Source of the DNA: Branchiostoma floridae
Taxonomy: Eukaryota > Chordata > Leptocardii > Amphioxiformes > Branchiostomatidae
Direction: 5' to 3'
Assembly (NCBI RefSeq): GCF_000003815.2
Contig: NC_049994.1
Span: 12,587,996-12,651,995, forward strand
DNA: 64,000 nt
Below the pieces are notes generated by a model, which was not told where the DNA came from, ran no database searches, and saw only the letters and a program-made list of their open reading frames with translations. Of the stretch, positions 6,391-53,571 are shown piece by piece. How positions within the stretch are numbered: position 1 is the first letter of the stretch; each line of letters begins with the position of its first letter. The position numbers and the translations under genes are program-made.

Positions 6391-8240
6391 CAATCAATCA
6401 ATCAATCAATCAATCAAATGGTTTATTCAGAATAAAAACAAGGCACTGGCAACCAGAGGTTGAATTACGGCCTTGTTGTACAGCACCTCTGTGCTACAAA
6501 TACAATAAAATCACGTTACATATATACGATACAATACAGTTGCATTGTTAACATTAATTTCCATTATTTTTGTTCAGCAGGCATATCATATATGGGATTG
6601 CACTTTTTTTGTAGCGCTCAGTTCTGGGTTTGACAGTGTCTAGTTGGTTGCTGGCCCTTGTGGCTCTCCCAGTGATAGCCCCCCGGGTTTGTGGTAGCCA
6701 GTGACGGAAGTCCGGTGACTGGAGGAGTTTCTGGGCGAACTGCAGGCAGAGGTGGTCTCTCCTTTGATCTAGGGTAGACAAGTTCAGAATCCGGCACGCC
6801 TCTGGGTATGAAGTGTAGGCAGAGCGGAGTATTATCCGACATGCGCGTTTCTGGATGAATTCGATCCTTCGTCGCTGTCTAGCAGTTAGTCCAGGATGCC
6901 AGGCAGGCGCTGCGTACTCACAGCTTGGACGGACGAATGTTTTGTAGCAGGTAAGTATGTCATCCCTAGACAGATCGAACTGGTTGAGTTGTTTAAGCAT
7001 AAATAGCTTTCGGTTGCCTTGTTTGACAATGTGGTCTACATGTGCGTTCCAACCAAGGTCAGCCTGGATGAACAAGCCGAGGAGTTTAACTATCTTGACC
7101 TCCTCTAACGGTTGGCCAGCAATAGACAGGGGTGGCAGTGGAAGGACTGTTCTCGTAAAGACCACGTGCATGGCTTTGCATTTTTGGGGGTGAAGTTTCA
7201 TCTTTCTTGTGGATGCCCATTGGTCGAGGCTGTTGAGGTCCGTTTGAATTGTTGAGGTGTCCCGGATCAACCTGCTCTCAGCTAAGTTAAGATCATCCAC
7301 GAACTTCCACCTCCTAGCAAGGGAATCCTCACTTGCACTGTTGATTAGAGCAAGGAAGATTAAGGGGCCTAACACTGTTCCTTGTGGTAGGCCACAGGTC
7401 GTCTCCCTCCAATCTGAATACGTTCCCTTGTACATCACTCTCTGCTTTCTAGTGGACAGGAACGAACATACCCATTTGGCGAGCGAGCTTCGTAGACCTG
7501 CTCCAAGTAGGCTTGAAATGGCTATGCTGTGGTCCACAAGGTCGAACGCCTTGGCAAAATCCGTAGTTATCAGCGTTGTTATTGTCTCCCTCTTATCTGC
7601 TGTTCTAGCCAGTTGGTCAATTAAATCAACGAGGCAGTGTGTCGTAGAACGACCTGGTATGCAACCAAACTGGTTTGGGTCAATGCTGTGCTTGATGTCA
7701 GAGTACAGATGTTTCGAGATGAAAGTTTCCGCTACTTTTGCTAGGGTAGGTGTCAGGGATATGGGTCTAAGTTCGCTGATCGACGGCGGGCGCGTTTTAG
7801 GTAGTGGTATGATATTTGCCTGTCGCCATTGTTCTGGGACGACCCCCTCCGATAGTGAGGCATTCAATATGGACGTTACTGGTGTAGAAATCTCATAGGC
7901 AAAGCACTTGATGATTCTGTTGGAAAGACCGTCCGGTCCTGCGGCTTTGTTCACTTTGACGTGTTTCAACTTTTCGTACACTTGCCACGGCTGCACCTCG
8001 TCCAAAGGCCTAGCTGGGAGAAATGTTGGTAGTCTAGTGTTGTCCAGTGGGTCGAGTGAGCAGGTTATTGTGCACAGAGCATTGTTTACTGCGTCAGCGA
8101 CAGCCTTGTTGTCTCCTGGTGGTGCACCTTCAACGTGGAGGGTGAGACCTGTTCCTGACGTGTTCGTCATGACCTTGATCTGCTGGTACCATGTCCTTAA
8201 GCTCCGTCTCTGACAAATCACCTTTTGAATCCAATAAAGG
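6391..8240 (-). mobile_element. 5'-truncated non-LTR retrotransposon
   Basis: Contains the reverse-transcriptase ORF described separately, a short 3' UTR, and on the minus strand a 3' tail of about seven TTGA-type tetranucleotide repeats (plus 6391-6416), as in CR1/L2/Rex-like LINEs that end in microsatellites rather than poly(A). No endonuclease domain is found upstream. The frame closes with a stop just beyond 8221, indicating a 5' truncation typical of target-primed reverse transcription. Confidence 0.8.
6554..8221 (-). CDS. Reverse transcriptase of a non-LTR retrotransposon (fragment)
   Basis: A 555-residue open frame without internal stops. Visible RT motifs in order are NKAAGPDGL (residues 91-99), LRPISL (151-156), DFAKAFD (221-227, first catalytic Asp), GLPQGTVLGP (277-286) and FVDD (307-310, catalytic Asp pair). 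The C-terminal thumb and tail follow, with a YAAPAWHPGL-like block typical of LINE ORF2 proteins of the CR1/jockey group. The frame begins at a GTG because the element is 5' truncated, so this is not a true start. Intact coding over 1.6 kb suggests a fairly young copy. Clade assignment by eye is uncertain. Confidence 0.88.
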   Translation of the reverse strand: MICQRRSLRTWYQQIKVMTNTSGTGLTLHVEGAPPGDNKAVADAVNNALCTITCSLDPLDNTRLPTFLPARPLDEVQPWQVYEKLKHVKVNKAAGPDGLSNRIIKCFAYEISTPVTSILNASLSEGVVPEQWRQANIIPLPKTRPPSISELRPISLTPTLAKVAETFISKHLYSDIKHSIDPNQFGCIPGRSTTHCLVDLIDQLARTADKRETITTLITTDFAKAFDLVDHSIAISSLLGAGLRSSLAKWVCSFLSTRKQRVMYKGTYSDWRETTCGLPQGTVLGPLIFLALINSASEDSLARRWKFVDDLNLAESRLIRDTSTIQTDLNSLDQWASTRKMKLHPQKCKAMHVVFTRTVLPLPPLSIAGQPLEEVKIVKLLGLFIQADLGWNAHVDHIVKQGNRKLFMLKQLNQFDLSRDDILTCYKTFVRPSCEYAAPAWHPGLTARQRRRIEFIQKRACRIILRSAYTSYPEACRILNLSTLDQRRDHLCLQFAQKLLQSPDFRHWLPQTRGAITGRATRASNQLDTVKPRTERYKKSAIPYMICLLNKNNGN

Positions 8241-9121
8241 CTTCAAAAACGATAATTGAATCTAACTGAAATAATTGTAATACATCGAAAGAAGGTTAGA
8301 CATCCAGGTAACAGATACAACAAACAGCAGTTGCTCGATCAACTGGATAACCTAAATCATGTCAAGAGTTGCTTGAGTAGTATAGCTACTGCTATGTGGC
8401 GAACAATAATAAGATCTAAAAGTAAAAGTGTGTACAAATTCATGGAGGTGGTTGTCTCTTCAGTTCCACCGCTTCTTTTCAAGCAGCAGCAAGCTATAAA
8501 AGGCGACCATAATTAGGAAAACCTTGGACCAAGGCAATGCCATTAAGCGGGATGGACGAATAGGGACTGAAGTTGTTGTACAAAAAAATAAAACAATAAT
8601 ACAGACTCAATGAGGCGGTTCTAAACAAATAAACAGATCAACCACTCATAAATGTTCTCATCAGACATCACAGGTAAACGATAGGAAAAATTACAGGAAT
8701 GGCTGTGTATAGACTTCCCAACAAAAAAGGCGAAGGGATTTACATGTATTCTTTGTCGGATTGTCGGATACGTCGTCTTACGCGAAAAATTCCGGCCTGC
8801 AATCGCGACTTTTCTAACGGGTTACCATTTTCGAGGTTGTCATTAATTTCAATATAAATTTCTTATTTCATTAACATTGCAGACATGCGATGTTTGATGC
8901 TTAACTGCTACAAGCGTATTGCACAGAGTGATATAGTTACATGTCCCAACTTTGTACAATCCGAAGCCCTCCAAAAAGTACTTTTCGATGAGCACGGACG
9001 CTCACATATGTTGAGATGGACGATATACGACTGTCCACAAATCGCGCCTTCAAGATGACGTACCATATCATTCCTTCCCAACAAGTACCAGCCTAGCAAT
9101 CAGCAATGTATTTAGTTACTC

Positions 9122-23000: not shown

Positions 23001-26000
23001 CTGCCTCTTAGTCCAGAGGCAGGGTCGCTAGACACTAGACTATGCATGATACTAAGGAATAGTGCAAAATTATTTGTGGGGACGTAACCATGGTAGACGT
23101 TTATTTTTCATCATCAGTGTTTGTTTTAAGCTTGTGAAAGCAACTTTCTGTAACTCTAACGCAATGCAAGACAGCAGTGTGATGAGTTTGCGCCTTTGCG
23201 GTGAAAAAAAAAGTCCCAAACATGAACATGAAATCACCCTAAATATTTCACAATTTACAGTACTTGGCTCACGTAAGTCATCATCATGCCAACACCATGA
23301 CTATCATTTGTCTGACATCTTTAATTAATCTTTATTTAGCGTCCAAGTTCTTGTCAGCGCTGGCACAGGACGGTGTGGTGAACGAGGAGAACCTGTCGGT
23401 GGGAGAGCTGGACAGGATGTTTGGTCCCCTCCAAAAACAGGTCACAGAAAGTGTGTCCAGACAGGAGGGTCTCATGAACAAGATTCAGGTAGGTCAACGG
23501 TTAGAGTTTACCCTGCAAATGAGCTGGCATTGTGGTTAGAGATGCTAATCTAAAGGGATCCTGGTTTAAATTTCAGGGTTGTGCCCGTAGAATCCAAAGG
23601 TTATGGGTTTGAATCCCAATATTGTGACTTTGGGAAGGCACTTTACACCATTCCTCACTTGACCATGCCGTTGTTGCACTAGTTCTGTGAGTAACATTTG
23701 TATTGTAAGACTAGACTTTTGTGTAAAATGCCGTTGATACCAGTTTATTTCCCCCCATACAGACCGCCAACACAGAGTTCTGCCAGCAGAAACAGGCGAG
23801 TGGATCGGCCAATCAGAGGGAAGAGAAGCTGAAAGACCTGGCCGCCGCACATGACGCCTTCATGGAGCTGCTGGGTAATCTGGAAGAAGGGACCAAGGTA
23901 AGGTTGCATTGTGGGTAGTGAGATTCTGTGGGGACAAGGTGTGAGTGACCTTGAAGATGTCAAGCACAAGTTGGAAGCTCCATATTTAGAGTTACCTGAC
24001 TACATATTGGTTTGTTTTCAATTCAGTAAAAAGTTACCTTTGTGTTTCAGCAATAATGCTAGATTACTGTAATAACACTGTGTAATCAATTTGCTAACCA
24101 GTCTAGAAACAGAGTATTCAAAGTAAAATCTTAACAGCAGCTTCAAGATATTGAACTTCATGATTAGATTGTCTTTTCATCTATATTTCAGTTCTACAAT
24201 GAGCTTCTGCTGCTTTTAGTCAAGTTCCAGACAAAGTGTAACGACATTGTCTTTGCTCGAAAGACGGAGAAAGATGAGCACCTGAAGTAAGTATAATATC
24301 TGAATTCTTCATCTGTCTGTAATTATGGTATTTCACAGACTTAAAGCAGATTTTGAGCTGCTCTATTGTAATTTTCTGAACTTTCCTTCTATTGACATCC
24401 TGATGTATAATGACTTGAACTTTAAACAGGATGGAAGGCTTAGATTTTTTTCTGCCCCAGCAAATGTCCATCCTGGGATGAACAGACAGGTGCTGAAGAG
24501 AACCCTGGTTCCAGTTTGATAAAAAAAACTATGTTGTGTGTTAATGTATAAATGATTATACATCTATAAGACTAATATCTTGTGCTCCAATCACAGAGAG
24601 TTACAGGAGAACATTGCCAAGCAGGAAAAAGATTGAGCCAGAAGTTACAATGGAGGATGGTACCTACATTATAGGCTAGGAGAGATAGGTTTTGAAGAGA
24701 AAGAAACCATGTTGTGTGAATGTATAAAAAGATAGTATGACCAATGCCTTGTGCCCCACTCATAGAGACTTACAGGAGAACATTGCCAAGCAGGAAAAAG
24801 ATTGAGCCAGCAGTTACTATGGAGGATGGCACCTACATTATAGGCTAGGAGAGGTTCTGGAGAGAAAGAAACCATGTTGTGTGTCAATGTATAAAAGATT
24901 GTATGACCAACATCTTGTACTCTACTCACAGAGACCTACAGGAGAACATTGCCAAGCAGGAAAAAGATGTAGCCAGCAGTTACTATGGAGGATGGTACCT
25001 ACATTATAGGCTAGGAGAGGTTCTGGAGAGAAAGAAACCATGTTGTGTGTCAATGTATAAAAGATTGTATGACCAACATCTTGTACTCTACTCACAGAGA
25101 CCTACAGGAGAACATTGCCAAGCAGGAAAAAGATGTAGCCAGCAGTTACTATGGAGGATGGTACCTACATTATAGGCTAGGAGAGGTTCTGGAGAGAAAG
25201 AAACCATGTTGTGTGTCAATGTATAAAAGATTGTATGACCAACATCTTGTACTCTACTCACAGAGACCTACAGGAGAACATTGCCAAGCAGCCGTCCCAG
25301 TCTGCCCCCACCCCTCCAGCCTACCAGGCCTCGGGTTAGTCATGCTTCCTTACATGTAACATTTAACCCTTACCAGCCTGATGTGTTTTTGTTAACCCCC
25401 CAACAGGGATATACAGGACAGCATTCTTCAGCAGCCAACCTCCAGTATCCCTAATACACCGGAGTATCAAAAAACTGGTTTGTGATGAAATAAACTGGTG
25501 AATACTCTTTCGTTGGGTTAAAGAGCTTGAGTGGAACTGCTTACTTTGGTTTGTTCTAACCTCAACTGGTTGTTCTATAGCAGTTTCAATGGGAAGTTAG
25601 CTAAATGCACTGTAAGCTGTGTTTCCTTAAGCATTGTGCATGTTGCACAGGAACTAGCTTGTACACAGACTGCACTTGATTGGTGACAATGGTAGCTGCT
25701 TCTGCAGTAGAGTTAGAAGTGTTGTTTGGCCAGAATTAGCCTGGTATCCAACCGTATTATAGCTCCCAGGTCTCCTCTGTCCTCTCTGCATTCTCTTCTG
25801 TATAATACGGCTGGATACCAGGCTGGGCCAGAATAGCCTACAACTTAGCATGTACGTGGTGTAGCCTTTTTAACAGGCATGTGCTTTCTTGGGATTGCTA
25901 CAATGTATGTAGTTTTGCATAGCAGTTTTGCTAACTTAACTGAATGTGTGCACCTTTAATTACAGGACCTGGTGGAGCCAAGCCACCGCCACCTGCTCGC

Positions 26001-40674: not shown

Positions 40675-43600
40675 ATGAGCCGACAGACGATAAGCGGGAA
40701 GCCGAACCGGCACACGCCCACGAGCAGCGCCACATCGACCCAGGACCTGGCGGGGCTGTTTGAGTGTCCGGTGTGCTTCGACTACGTCCTCCCCCCCATC
40801 CTACAGTGCCAGAGTGGACATCTGGTGTGTTCCAGCTGCAGACCTAAACTCTCATGCTGTCCAACATGCAGAGGACCACTGGGTAGGGGGCCTTGGATTT
40901 TTTGTATTGTTTATTCTGGTATTTTGATGAACAAGACAAGTGAATAGGAAGTCTTGGACTTCTTTCCCTCTTTTCATAAATATTGCTTTCAGATTGTAGT
41001 GTTCAAATATGCAAAATACCAGAGGGTCAAAGGCAACGATCAGCACCCGCTTCCACTAGATGGCAATTTACCACTGAACCACCAAACATATGACAAGTTG
41101 CACATGGAATTTTATGGATAAAGAGCTTATCTTTTTTGGTTTCTTGTCTTATTTAGATCATATTCCAATTATAAAATCACGCAAATTTTGGGTTCAACGG
41201 TTGTTGATTATGGTTGCAGCAATTACTGTCAATTACCATGGATGATTGTTTAAAAGTGGCTTTTCTATGGTGGTTATCATCATCAAATTATCAAGGTTTT
41301 TATTATTAAATATAAGACTTAGAGGCATATGAATTGTTTTCATAATCGTTGTTCTTGATGCCACCGTTTCCACCTTCTGTAAACTGTAAGTTGCCTTTTT
41401 GCTACTTTACAATTGCTCATGTTTTCACATGTTCTTCTTGTACTTCTAGGCAACATCAGAAACCTGGCCATGGAGAAGGTAGCGAGCACAGTCATGTTCC
41501 CCTGCAAGTACGCGTCGGCAGGGTGTCCTGTTACATTGTTGCACACAGGTAAGGTCACAGGTCAGCAGTAGGATGATGCATTCTTGGCAACACCACAAGG
41601 GCTTAGCCTTTATTGGTCCTTACTCCATTGTATTTGGATTGGATTTACAGGGCTGGAAATACCACATGCATGTGCAGGTAAAATTGGAGCTGTGCAGGTA
41701 TTTCTGATGTCTACCTGCACTTAACCTGCACTGGTCCATGTACTGGGTTTTATACATACTGTAATTCACTTTATCTTCACGGTACCAAATTTTCACGGTC
41801 TGAGAAAATTGAACTTGTTCTCGGAACTAAATGTTCACTGTCGAGGCAAGTGCGCATGAAAAAAGTCTGTGAATTATTTTTTATCGGTAATGATAAGTTC
41901 ACGTTAAAGTCGTCACCGTGAAAACCGTGAACATAACATTACAGTGAAAAAATCAGGAATTACAGTAAATGTCCTGTGATGTAGGTGCATGTGGATTGTT
42001 ATTAACTGCACTGACTGTTACCATCTATGAAGTATAAGAAAAAATGAATGAATTTGGTATGATCCATACTTAAATAAATTCAAAGTGGTGCAGGTAATTT
42101 TAATGTTACCTGCAAGCCCTGATTTATGATAAAAGAAATAACTCAATTTTGTGTTGTACACTTAAAATGTGTATGGAAGACATGTATTCATTTTGTATCA
42201 AAATATGTATCCTCAATACTGTAATAGAAAGGATATGGTCTGGCTGTATGTCTGGATGACTTACTTGAATGTCACAGAATCCGTCTGTGGTAAGTTGATA
42301 AGTTCTAAAGCCACTGTTTCTGCTTTCACTTGTATTCTTCAGAAACAACACTAGAGCTGTAAAATTCATCTTTTTAACTTTCATCTAGCCAAAGGATTCG
42401 TCTGCTATGCTTAGTCTTGACTTGTTATGCAGGTAGTCTCATACTCTGATTTAGAAATAGGACAATCGATACATGTATTGATGGTTGTTTTTCTCCCCTA
42501 ACAGAAAAGCCAGACCACGAGGAGATCTGTGACTTCAGACCGTACTCGTGCCCGTGTCCGGGGTCCTCCTGTAAGTGGCAGGGTTCACTGGACGCAGTCA
42601 TGCCACACCTGACACACGCACACAAGTCCATAACAACACTACAAGGTTAGTCACTGTTTCCTTTTTTACCTAACTCTTGTGTGGTACTGTTTTTGGTTCG
42701 CCTGCTTGTCTGTATGGGATCATGTGGTGTAATTAGCTCAGGAGAAATTGTTTGGCTCTGGAATAGGTTCTGGGTTCGAAATTTTAAGGGTTAAGGCACA
42801 TAACAATACTTTCCTTACTTCACTCAGGTGAAAATGAGTACCTATCTTCGGTTAGGATCGTCCCTCAGATAAGACGTAAAAAGGAGGTATTCCGTACACC
42901 ACTTACTTACTTTCTAATTAGCCTTCAGGCATGATCGCTTGCAATAAAGTTGTTATAATTATTATGTGAATTAAGAACCCCTATCAAACATTTCCACACC
43001 TGTTCCCTACAGGAGAGGACATCGTGTTCCTGGCCACAGACATCAACCTGCCTGGGGCTGTGGACTGGGTCATGATGCAGTCCTGCTTCGGACACAACTT
43101 CATGTTAGTCCTGGAGAAACAGGAGAAGTATGATGGGCACCAGCAGTTCTTCGCTATCGTACAGCTAATAGGTACCAGAAAACAGGCTGAGAACTTTGCC
43201 TACAGGTAACTACCACCAGCAGTTCTTCGCTATCGTACAGCTAATAGGTACCAGAAAACAGGCCGAGAACTTTGCCTACAGGTAACTACATGTACTACCA
43301 GTAGTTCTTTGCTATCGTACAGATAATTATAGGTACCAGAAAACAGGCCGAGAACTTCGCCTACAGGTAACTACCACCAGCAGTTCTTCGCTATCGTACA
43401 GCTAATTATAGGTACCAGAAAACAGGCCGAGAACTTTGCCTACAGGTAACTACCACCAGCAGTTCTTCGCTATCGTACAGCTAATAGGTACCAGAAAACA
43501 GGCTGAGAACTTTGCCTACAGGTAACTACCACCAGCAGTTCTTCGCTATCGTACAGCTAATTATAGGTACCAGAAAACAGGCCGAGAACTTTGCCTACAG

Positions 43601-44369
43601 GTAACTACATGTACTACCTGTAGTTCTTCGCTATCGTACAGCTATTAGGTACCAGAAAACAGGCCGAGAACTTTGCCTACAGGTAACTACACGTACTACC
43701 TGTAGTTCTTCGCTATCGTACAGCTATTAGGTACCAGAAAACAGGCCGAGAACTGTACTGCATCCTCATTCTCTTACCACACACCCCTATACCCAGGGGA
43801 CAGATTTTCTGACAAGCATAGTATTTTGATTCACCAGGTATGCTACTTCTTTGATGTCTTCAACTGTATCCTCTCTGGCAGTAATCCCCCTTAAGAAGCA
43901 TTAAAATGCAGTTCTTCACTATCGTGCAGCTAATAGGTACCAGAAAACAGGCCAAGAACTTTGCCTACAGGTGACTACCACTAGCGGTTGGTTGTTTTGC
44001 AGCATGTTGTATTAGCTATGCCATGGGTTATGTAGTTGGGTAACTTGGAAAAGGTTCAGTAAGACAGAGAGATCACTGAAAAAAACCTCAAACATAAACC
44101 ACTGCAACTCTCAAGTTTTTCTGCAGTCATCAACTCAGGTGGATGTGTACCCATATCACCATGGTAACCACGATTGTCCTTCCCCTTCCAGACTGGAGTT
44201 GAACGGCCACCGGCGAAGACTGACATGGGAAGCCACGCCCAGGTCAATCCACGAGGGCGTGGCGTCCGCCATCAGCAGTAGCGACTGCCTGGTGTTCGAC
44301 ACCAACATCGCCAGACTCTTCGCAGATAACGGGAACCTAGGAATCAATGTCACCATCTCTACCTGCTGA
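40675..44369 (+). CDS. SIAH1: E3 ubiquitin-protein ligase SIAH (Seven in absentia homologue)
   Basis: RING E3 ligase that targets many signalling proteins for proteasomal degradation. Coding exons: 40675-40882, 41450-41548, 42505-42645, 43013-43205, 44192-44369; 272 residues (human SIAH1 282). RING finger at 31-66 (CPVC...[11 protein letters not shown]...CCPTC). The SIAH-type zinc finger follows, with Cys/His pairs in CKYASAGC and [10 protein letters not shown] and a C-PCPG-C and HLTHAHK end. The substrate-binding domain (about 145-272) is almost identical to the human one, ending INVTISTC. Divergence is confined to the N-terminal 30 residues. A spliced 5' UTR is implied by an acceptor ten bases upstream of the ATG. 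Intron 4 is filled with partial copies of exon 4. Single SIAH1/2 pro-orthologue is likely. Confidence 0.95.
41758..41968. mobile_element. MITE with TACTGTAAT...ATTACAGTA termini
   Basis: Starts TACTGTAATTCAC and ends GGAATTACAGTA, with internal TTCACGG / CCGTGAA inverted blocks; noncoding. It resembles the 16355 and 58169 elements in termini and layout but not in body sequence. It lies in SIAH intron 2. Confidence 0.6.
42738..42985 (+). repeat. Degenerate SINE
   Basis: A tRNA-like head (TAGCTCAGGAG..., GGGTTCGAAA) is followed by the GGCACATAACA, AAATGAGTACC, TCGTCCCTCAGATAAGACG and TTAAGAACCCC landmarks in the same order as in the SINE at 17785. It lies in SIAH intron 3. Confidence 0.5.
43141..43982 (+). 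repeat. Minisatellite duplicating the SIAH exon 4 donor
   Basis: The last ~65 bases of exon 4 plus its donor are repeated in tandem: units start near 43141 (the true exon), 43217, 43299, 43378, 43457, 43533, 43618 and 43700, with an isolated ninth partial copy at about 43909-43982. Units are 76-85 bases and most keep an intact CCTACAG/GTAACTA donor. Spacings are mostly not multiples of three. The first copy is the coding one because it continues the conserved protein and its donor joins exon 5 in phase. Confidence 0.9.
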
Positions 44370-49751: not shown

Positions 49752-49815
49752 ACCCCTATGTTCCCACACCCCTACGTACATGTACATACATGTAGGGGCG
49801 TGGGAACATAGGGGT
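49752..49815. repeat. Strong hairpin, about 29-base stem
   Basis: ACCCCTATGTTCCCAC and its inverted mate GTGGGAACATAGGGGT form the base of the stem, and CCCCTACGTACATGTA pairs with TACATGTAGGGG apart from a four-base gap. Stem plus tiny loop spans 64 bases. No target duplication seen. Confidence 0.55.
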
Positions 49816-50129: not shown

Positions 50130-53100
50130 TTACGGGATGTCGCATGTGGAGCGGACCAGCCTGTTGAACTGGTGATGCACGTCCGTCACCACGCGCTCGA
50201 AGTCCCGGATGAGCAGGTAATGCCTGACGTCAGTGTCCATCCCGGGGTCGGCGGTAGGGATGGGGCTGGGCGGGGTGCTGTTACTGTGTTCTAGTGTGAT
50301 ACCCAGCATGGTGGCCTGTGGAGGGATTTCAAAGACTTTATGACAACTGCTATCTCCTTGTATGATATTGCCGACTTCTTAGTTCATTGCCTTGAAGTCG
50401 TCTAAAGACCTTGCTCTGAACGATCTCGTTAAGAAAATGAGTAAACAAACACCCATAACTTGAGCAATACGCATTCACTGTAGCAACATCACTCATCATC
50501 AAAAACGTTTGTTAACATTGGTCGTGAATGGAGTTGTTCGCTTATAGTGTTAAAGAAACTCTTTGCAACGTCGCTAAAGTCTACTAGTATGTTCATTTTT
50601 CGTAAAGAACTCTCGAACAACATATTAGACTGACCCCTCAACTCATATTGACAACGCTGTGAGTTGTGTGAACATACCTAGGATTAGGTCTTTTCCAAAT
50701 AGGTTGTCCAGATTCTGTTTGAGTAGATACCACCTTTACTTATTACCGGTACCGCGGTATGCGTAAAGTTTCGGCAATTTTCGAACGCATACACTCACTA
50801 GACTAGCCTATATCAAAATTCGTGTTATTCGGTCGAAGTAGTGACAGATAGAATAAATGAAAACTACCCAATGGATTACCAATGGAATCTAATATGTTGA
50901 CAGGTGATCACTATAGACAGAGTTCTTAATGCTTCAACGAGAAACATATGTTTAATAGTGACCACCGTCAAGTTGTGACGCGTACAGGTTTGATAGTATG
51001 GTTATCTCGTCCATCTGTCCTTACCGCTACTCTCACAGCAAGGATGATCTTCCTGGTGTAGTCAATGACCCTCTGTAGTTTCCTCATCAGCTCGGGGTCC
51101 CAGCCACCCTCTGCCCGGGACGAGACCAGCAGCTCACGGAACATCATCAGCTGGTTCTCTACCCACACCAACCTGCCCTCGTCCTGTAACACAACACACG
51201 CAGCGTTAGAAACACTGACATTTTTTACCTTTGCCAAGAAGGTTGTGTTTTCTGTAGCGTCTGTGTGACTGTGTACATGTGTGCGCGCGTGTGGTGTGTG
51301 TGTGTGTGTGTGGATGGACAGCATAAATTGAGAATGCTTTGATGGATTGTGTTCATGTTTCGTATGTGAGTAGGTCTTCATGAGATCTTGAAATGATTAG
51401 ATTTTGCACCCCTTAACGGTTTGTTACAGTATATACAGGGTGAATGTTGTGTTAGGTAATGTAACTAGTAAACTTCCCAATATATATATGAGCAAATGTT
51501 AGTGAAGGTTTAATCAGCTTACCGTTAGATTGTCTCGCTGGTTGAAGGTCTGTGAGAGGCTGGGAAACAGCGTGGGGAGGTCCTGGTCATCTGGGTCCAC
51601 CTGGATACAGGCAAGTAATGAAGATATAATTACGATTTTGCTGCAAAGTGCGCATGCGACGACATCAGGGAATGGACAGGTACATCACTAGCTGACTGTA
51701 CTCAGAAGGCGATCGCGAAGAACAGGGAAGTACGGAGAGGATAGTGCTGGAGGCAACCATGGTCCCCTCAGCCCTCTAGATGAGGGTGAGACGAGGTGAG
51801 GTGAGGCTAACGGACATTGGTAATATCAAATAGTCCGACAACCCACACATCCTTGAACATATGAGGATCTAGAGACCTACCGGAATGGAGTCGCGAAGAC
51901 GAGTGACACACCCCCGAAATCTGATGGCCAGCTGACTGTTGATCTCCATCTGCCTGCAGGGTGTTCTGTCCCGCTTGTGTCTGACCGGCACAGCGTCGGC
52001 CTGCACCGCTACCAGCAGGCAGAGCGCCGCACAAAGAGCCACGGTGGAAACTGTGGGGCATAGAACATCGGTCAAGCTTAGGATGCGTAAGATTGGGGGA
52101 AAACGATGATCCCGACTGAAACTCGTGAAGAGACAAGTCGTCTTCCGAAGTACATTTTTCATGTACACAACATGAAAACTGTAAACGCGCAAGAGTAGGG
52201 AAGACACGACTTTGTTTCGAGATGATTGCGATTAAAGCTTGTGAACGGACAAGCCCTCTTACTAGGCTAGCACTATGGCAGCAAGTCCATCTGCCTTATG
52301 CCACGATCAAAGTGAAAGTCTTCTATATATAAAAAAGGATAGGGAAAACACAGCAAAATGTGTATAAACATGTTAGAAAATTACGTAGATGTGATGCATG
52401 TGAATGGCTATGCGTCATAAATTCCTATCGTATTGAGATATCACACTTCATGTATGTGGTTGCAACGTCGGGGAAGTGTTCCGCAAGGATTTATTCTCGG
52501 CCCTAATTATCATCGGAATGTCGCCAGCACTGTTTATTTTGTAAACTTACAAACTATATCATTTCTGTTTGGTACATTCAAGGACGTTATAAAAAGATTT
52601 ATATAACGTCCTTGGTACATTCTTGTGATGCTGTATTCATAGAGACCCTCAACATCAGTTTTATATCTAGTTAACGTGAAGACATTCTTGGTCGGACAAA
52701 CCTCATTCTTTGTGCTACCCAGGCCAGATGCACCATTCCTCGCTAGCGCGCTTTTGAATCTATTCTGCCCTACTCAGATTTCAATCGATTTTGATGGTAA
52801 GAAGTGCAAAAGCAAGTTCCGTCTCCGAAATGGATGTGCAAAAGGAAAGAGTAATTTCTATATTGAGAAGGGACAATGACGACCATATTCTCCAGCGTAC
52901 AGAAGCCACAATAAATGTACTTTTTTTCATAAGCGTTTGATATACAAAGGTGACTGACAGTTAAGAACCAGCGATGATGTCATAATGGAATTTGTGACTC
53001 ATCGTGATGCGTCACTGAGGAAACGTTGAGCAGAAAAAAGAGAACACAGAAGAGATAATTTTGTTATGTATTGTTTTAAACAATTGAATTAACCTTTTCA

Positions 53101-53500
53101 GAATGTTTTGTTGCTGTTGATCGTTAATGTTAGATTACTCCTGCGACTGTTGAAAACTCGAAACACACAATTGAATGATCACCATAGCGATCTGCGGATA
53201 CTTATGAAATGCAAAAACATCACATAATCTGTTTTGAATGCCGTAAAGCATATATATTCATACAAACGTCTTCAGTATATCATAAAGATGACAGGCGACT
53301 GACACATTTTTTCTGTCCTAACTTTTTTTGTTGATGCGTATATATGTGCATCTCGTAAAGCAAAGTGTCTCAGTAGGTTAACACATGCACAACGCATTAA
53401 AAGAGACACCTGTATGTTTAAAAGGTAGATATTTTCGATGCACCGCTACGAGGATTAAGGCACATTTTAAAGAAGGATTCCTACCTTGTCCTTGCTGCAT
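50130..53500 (-). CDS. Secreted four-helix protein, candidate long-chain class I cytokine/hormone
   Basis: Coding exons on the minus strand: 53500-53485, 52050-51881, 51600-51523, 51183-51025, 50315-50130; 202 residues, GT-AG throughout, intron phases 1,0,0,0. The first exon holds only five codons plus one base, then a hydrophobic leader (LCAALCLLVAVQA, about 11-23) and a furin-type RHKR (29-32). Mature part about 33-202. Predicted helices: A 37-59 (exon 2), B 90-110 and C 117-141 (exon 4), D 169-198 (exon 5), with long A-B (exon 3) and C-D loops and a short B-C loop: the up-up-down-down plan. Cysteines C37, C53, C199; C37-C199 could join the N-terminus to the end of helix D as in erythropoietin. 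N-glycosylation sequons N86 and N153. Five exons, this phase pattern and this exon-helix map are those of GH/PRL, EPO, IL-6 and G-CSF genes. Which subfamily is unresolved; a GH-like hormone has been reported in amphioxus and this might be it. Confidence 0.72.
52579..52614. mobile_element. Mini-palindrome insertion, variant interior
   Basis: A 36-base foldback with CAAGGACGTTATA arms, flanked by perfect 7-bp repeats GTACATT (52572-52578 and 52615-52621). It shares only the CAAGGA/TCCTTG-type ends with the other copies and sits in intron 1 of the cytokine-like gene. Confidence 0.55.
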
Positions 53501-53564: not shown

Positions 53565-53571
53565 CTTTATA
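53565..53571 (-). promoter_or_regulatory. TATA box of the cytokine-like gene
   Basis: On the minus strand GGGTATAAAG lies about 65 bases upstream of the ATG at 53500, placing a start site near 53535-53542 and leaving a 35-40 base leader. A strong TATA box fits an inducible gene and contrasts with the TATA-less neighbours. An ATG just after the TATA box lies upstream of this start and is probably not transcribed. Confidence 0.6.

Follow-up and report, generated by a model that had tools for sequence, protein, structure and literature searches.

A five-exon gene in the window, by which we mean the whole 64,000-nucleotide stretch of the Branchiostoma floridae genome analysed here, probably encodes a secreted long-chain class I-type helical cytokine and appears to be single-copy as far as could be seen; we put the probability of this reading at about 0.7. 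The class I assignment is partly supported by the exon plan, the predicted secretion signals, the order of the segments along the chain and the fact that the genome also contains exons of class I receptors. The sequences of vertebrate blood, immune and pituitary cytokines have diverged beyond recognition, which makes the origin of these proteins hard to trace. A lancelet gene with a kept exon plan, together with receptor exons, provides concrete ligand and receptor candidates and could help show where EPO- and GH-type hormones came from.

Gene structure and protein features

The gene model was rebuilt directly from the window. It consists of five coding exons on the minus strand, running from position 53500 to position 50130, and encodes 202 amino acids plus a stop codon. 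The coding exons are 16, 170, 78, 159 and 186 nt long and the intron phases are 1,0,0,0. All four introns have GT..AG ends, and the reading frame is open throughout. The features are as follows:

53565..53571, minus strand: TATA box TATAAAG in the sequence, starting at 53571, 71 nt upstream of the ATG
53485..53500, minus strand: coding exon 1, 16 nt, ending in phase 1, read from the sequence
51881..52050, minus strand: coding exon 2, 170 nt, with the rest of the predicted signal peptide, RHKR, proposed helix A, Cys37 and Cys53
51971..51982, minus strand: RHKR furin-type site, residues 29-32, located by combining exon coordinates with the sequence
51523..51600, minus strand: coding exon 3, 78 nt, with the proposed A-B loop and the sequon NLT (residue 86)
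51025..51183, minus strand: coding exon 4, 159 nt, with proposed helices B and C
50130..50315, minus strand: coding exon 5, 186 nt including the stop, with a Pro-rich C-D loop, NST (residue 153), proposed helix D and Cys199

Genes of long-chain class I cytokines have five coding exons with phases 1,0,0,0, which carry in order helix A, the A-B loop, helices B and C, and helix D; the coding exons of EPO are about 13, 146, 87, 180 and 156 nt long. The exon sizes and phases of the lancelet gene match this plan, with the helices placed as proposed above.

The N-terminus of the product is hydrophobic with an AxA site, a predicted signal peptide as judged by eye, and is followed by VPVRHKR. The mature chain after RHKR would be 170 residues long. 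It contains an odd number of cysteines (residues 37, 53 and 199), others being found in the signal peptide (residues 12 and 16), and the N-glycosylation sequons lie at N86 (NLT) and N153 (NST). The positions of Cys37 and Cys199 would suit an EPO-type disulphide between the start of helix A and the C-terminus.

Helical moments were compared with those of shuffled sequences. Proposed helices C and D were significantly amphipathic (p = 0.045 and 0.0024, respectively), whereas A and B were not (p = 0.25 and 0.77); an 18-residue scan gave p values of 0.51, 0.78, 0.007 and 0.001 for A, B, C and D, respectively. When five human cytokines (EPO, TPO, G-CSF, IL-6 and GH1) were put through the same scan, helix A was significant in 2/5, B in 0/5, C in 3/5 and D in 3/5. 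Because of this behaviour of the human proteins, amphipathicity restricted to C and D in the lancelet chain fits a long-chain cytokine and falls short of proof.

An earlier note on this DNA had described the five-exon model with its 16-nt first coding exon and phases 1,0,0,0, the TATA box, RHKR, the two sequons and cysteines near both ends of the mature chain; all of these were recovered in the rebuilt exons, splice sites and product. For the signal peptide that it claimed, the hydrophobic N-terminus and AxA site, judged by eye, are suggestive. Its "four amphipathic segments", in contrast, were reduced to two, C and D.

Sequence relatives and class I receptor exons

Pfam, PDB comparison, shuffled alignment and hhalign named no family for the protein, in agreement with the earlier note, which held that similarity was too low to name a member. 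Profile searches against cytokine families, proposed in that note as a check, likewise returned no family match: at E<=10, no Pfam cytokine family was matched by the precursor, the mature chain, exon 4 alone or exon 5 alone, and EPO_TPO did not match the protein. Two other Pfam matches were rejected, Defensin_propep (E = 0.022, below the cut-off and on the signal peptide) and TACO1_YebC_N in exon 4 (E = 0.17, below the cut-off). phmmer found no convincing solved relative among PDB sequences (best E = 0.53). The hhalign probabilities against cytokines were 0.05-0.41%, on par with the 0.16% of a myoglobin control. Shuffled global alignment gave z = 2.6 for TPO (p = 0.017), 0.86 for EPO, 1.33 for G-CSF, 1.23 for IL-6 and 1.26 for GH; the TPO value was the best of the five compared and is not significant once five comparisons are counted. 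In the same test, known within-family pairs reached z = 9.6 and 9.7, and known cross-family pairs -1.3 to 2.3.

Human EPO, TPO and GH each match their own Pfam cytokine family only, so the missing family match of the lancelet protein counts little, and a distant class I member could likewise fail to match. Human G-CSF reached IL11 (5.6e-4) and IL6 (0.023), and human IL-6 reached IL11 (1.3e-3), IL23 (0.0062) and GCSF (0.02). By these comparisons, the lancelet cytokine candidate is unplaced within the superfamily.

The genome searched was a 513-Mb assembly of 431 contigs, with the window on contig C16. A search for paralogues at E<=10 returned four places, all of them exons 2-5 of the gene itself; as the initial filter let through only four candidates, distant paralogues may have escaped this search. 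The gene is apparently single-copy, as far as the genome search could tell. The IL6 family profile found nothing in the genome (0/1 matched), but the positive controls were also silent, so this outcome carries no information.

Class I receptor exons are present in the same genome. The EpoR_lig-bind profile gave six places at E<=1, four of which are class I receptor first-domain exons with FTCWW or FRCWW, three on C7 and one on C15. The remaining places, on C10 and C11, were set aside, as they did not read as receptor first-domain exons. The receptor features are as follows:

C7:20654588-20654710 and C7:20695611-20695763, minus strand: near-identical pair of first-domain exons, 41 kb apart
C7:19439866 (19.440 Mb): more diverged first-domain exon
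C15:19050157-19055388, minus strand: Ig domain, then prolactin-receptor-like exons ending in WSEFS, from Pfam and PDB comparison

The near-identical pair on C7 (20.655 and 20.696 Mb) is a recent tandem duplication. Three exons tested alone against EpoR_lig-bind gave E values of 1.8e-6 to 1.7e-5; with a cut-off of 27.3 bits, C7 exons passed at 28.5 and 27.4 bits and the C15 exon, at 19.054 Mb, fell below at 25.4 bits. Against solved structures, the C7 exon at 20.7 Mb matched the prolactin receptor at 3.4e-8 versus 0.0042 for gp130. The C15 first-domain exon matched residues 3-40 of a prolactin receptor chain (1.9e-5), and the next two frames on the same strand, WSEFS included, matched the same chain from residue 41 (1.7e-16 together, versus 6e-4 for gp130). 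These later frames are named as receptor by PDB comparison alone; Pfam gave no match for one and two weak unrelated matches for the one with WSEFS. In sequence, the receptor exons found resemble the prolactin receptor more than gp130; the earlier note had proposed a gp130/EPOR/GHR-like receptor as the partner. An Ig domain lies directly before the C15 receptor frames (Pfam, 2.9e-10). GHRl is described with an N-terminal Ig-like domain in a 2022 review (PMC9010856), and the C15 locus perhaps fits this published receptor.

Because class I receptor exons occur in the same genome, a lancelet class I ligand would have possible partners; they have no bearing on its fold. They do bear on the reading that the gene encodes a helical secreted protein specific to the lineage and unrelated to cytokines, its exon phases being alike by chance. 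This reading would account for the lack of detectable similarity to any cytokine family, and phases of 1,0,0,0 are by themselves no rarity (a few percent, as a rough guess). Against it stands a joint agreement: the phases, the exon lengths with a tiny first exon, helices C and D, the position of the loop and the end cysteines all fit, and the genome contains class I receptor exons. We consider this reading unlikely.

Amphioxus class I cytokines have been published, and the lancelet gene is therefore not the first of its kind. GHl is a type I helical cytokine of 208 aa (KJ735508), and the amphioxus genome is stated to contain several other divergent class I cytokine genes, given without sequences in the sections of the review used here (PMC9010856). 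If the gene were the B. floridae orthologue of GHl, it would already be known. Its length and class are similar, GHl primer P19 has its best ungapped position within proposed helix B, and receptor exons resembling the prolactin receptor would suit a GH-type ligand. However, no match to either GHl primer occurs in the window at <=3 mismatches, and their best matches to the coding sequence (13/25 and 14/23) were no better than those of shuffled primers (p = 0.79 and 0.32, respectively). Since both primers are also absent from the genome at <=3 mismatches, they decide the matter in neither direction. We rate orthology to GHl as unlikely.

Chromosomal neighbourhood and coding character

We take PSMD3 and MED24 to be neighbours of human CSF3, and presumably TOMM7 marks the IL6 side, CCDC47 the GH1 side and POLR2H the THPO locus. 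Five of these neighbour markers were found in the lancelet genome: PSMD3 on C16 (a partial match), MED24, TOMM7 and CCDC47 all on C10, and POLR2H on C14. ARS2, the intended EPO neighbour, had no match in the genome, but the controls were likewise without a match, so its absence carries no weight. Since only one of the five markers found is on C16, synteny names no vertebrate counterpart, and the neighbour genes lend no support to the gene being an orthologue of IL6, CSF3, GH1 or THPO. C16 also carries the Hox cluster (10.05-10.64 Mb), 2 Mb from the window; Hox linkage was dropped as support for an IL6/CSF3 origin, being undone by the C10 markers. Sharing C16 with the Hox cluster and PSMD3 is what a one-to-one forerunner of a vertebrate gene on the IL6, CSF3 or GH1 chromosomes might show, but with 3/4 of such markers on C10 we regard this descent as very unlikely.

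Ten other frames in the window were compared with Pfam, and 7/10 matched at E<=0.01; the matches were a kinase, BRO1, an NAD-binding domain, ankyrin repeats, two SIAH parts and START (below the cut-off). These neighbours may be read as ordinary CDK, ALIX, HIBADH, gankyrin, SIAH and START-domain genes. At 24849-25359 (plus strand), two overlapping frames repeat one stretch, a short tandem duplication within the apparent ALIX/PDCD6IP-like gene. At 43172-43601 (plus strand), a 37-38-residue SIAH TRAF-like stretch occurs twice in nearly identical form, 316 bases apart. A 32-nt inverted repeat with abutting, 88% complementary arms lies at 49752-49815, and a 562-aa frame at 6554-8242 (minus strand) resembles, by eye, a non-LTR retrotransposon reverse transcriptase. 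Beyond the end of the window, at a distance of about 11-20 kb, tandem ankyrin-like frames are followed by a GTPase-like frame, both judged by eye.

Both codon position and codon use give the gene a good coding character. GC at the three codon positions is 0.61, 0.42 and 0.76, in a window with 41% GC. Scored for codon use, with 628 codons from other genes in the window as the training set, the gene reaches 0.507, a value attained by 0.13% of random window 609-mers read in a single frame with stops skipped (mean -0.19, SD 0.145). The true frame was the highest of the three sense frames in 4/5 exons, the exception being the 16-nt exon. One reservation concerns exons 2 and 3 (2/5), where the score of an antisense frame exceeds that of the true frame. 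Wrongly joined exons or a dead gene would fit with a first AATAAA/ATTAAA, the nearest canonical poly-A signal, 1225 nt downstream of the stop, but canonical splice sites, an open frame throughout and coding-like codon use make this highly improbable.

Proposed action and comparison with known cytokines

If the gene encodes a class I-type cytokine, the signal peptide would be removed near A25, and a furin-like protease would then cut after RHKR32 to release the 170-residue chain. The chain may fold into an up-up-down-down four-helix bundle with helix A from exon 2, B and C from exon 4 and D from exon 5, and would be glycosylated at N86 and N153. In EPO the two chain ends are tied by a disulphide; a Cys37-Cys199 bond may likewise tie the lancelet chain. 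The mature chain would bridge receptor chains of class I, perhaps those of the same genome that resemble the prolactin receptor, and signal via JAK/STAT. A more specific proposal is that the gene is a little-changed descendant of an ancestral long-chain cytokine, nearest to EPO/TPO, not GHl, and a ligand of a prolactin-receptor-like receptor; we offer this tentatively, as a possibility on the improbable side.

Compared with known systems, GHl (PMC9010856) is similar to the predicted lancelet product in being a class I helical cytokine that is secreted and about 200 aa long. GHl primers do not match the lancelet gene, a comparison made by primers alone that leaves the difference unproven. IL-6/G-CSF and GH/PRL share the five-exon phase plan and the proposed helix order with the lancelet gene; they differ in that IL-6, G-CSF and GH show no sequence match to the lancelet protein and that 3/4 of the neighbour genes lie on another chromosome. 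EPO/TPO differ in that the lancelet protein has a furin-type prosegment and no Pfam match, and POLR2H, presumably the THPO neighbour, is on C14. The resemblance to EPO/TPO, in turn, extends to the tiny first coding exon and phases 1,0,0,0, a short A-B loop exon (about 87 nt versus 78 nt in the lancelet gene), and a cysteine where helix A begins and another past helix D, and TPO gave the nominally best alignment of the lancelet protein (z = 2.6, p = 0.017, one of five).
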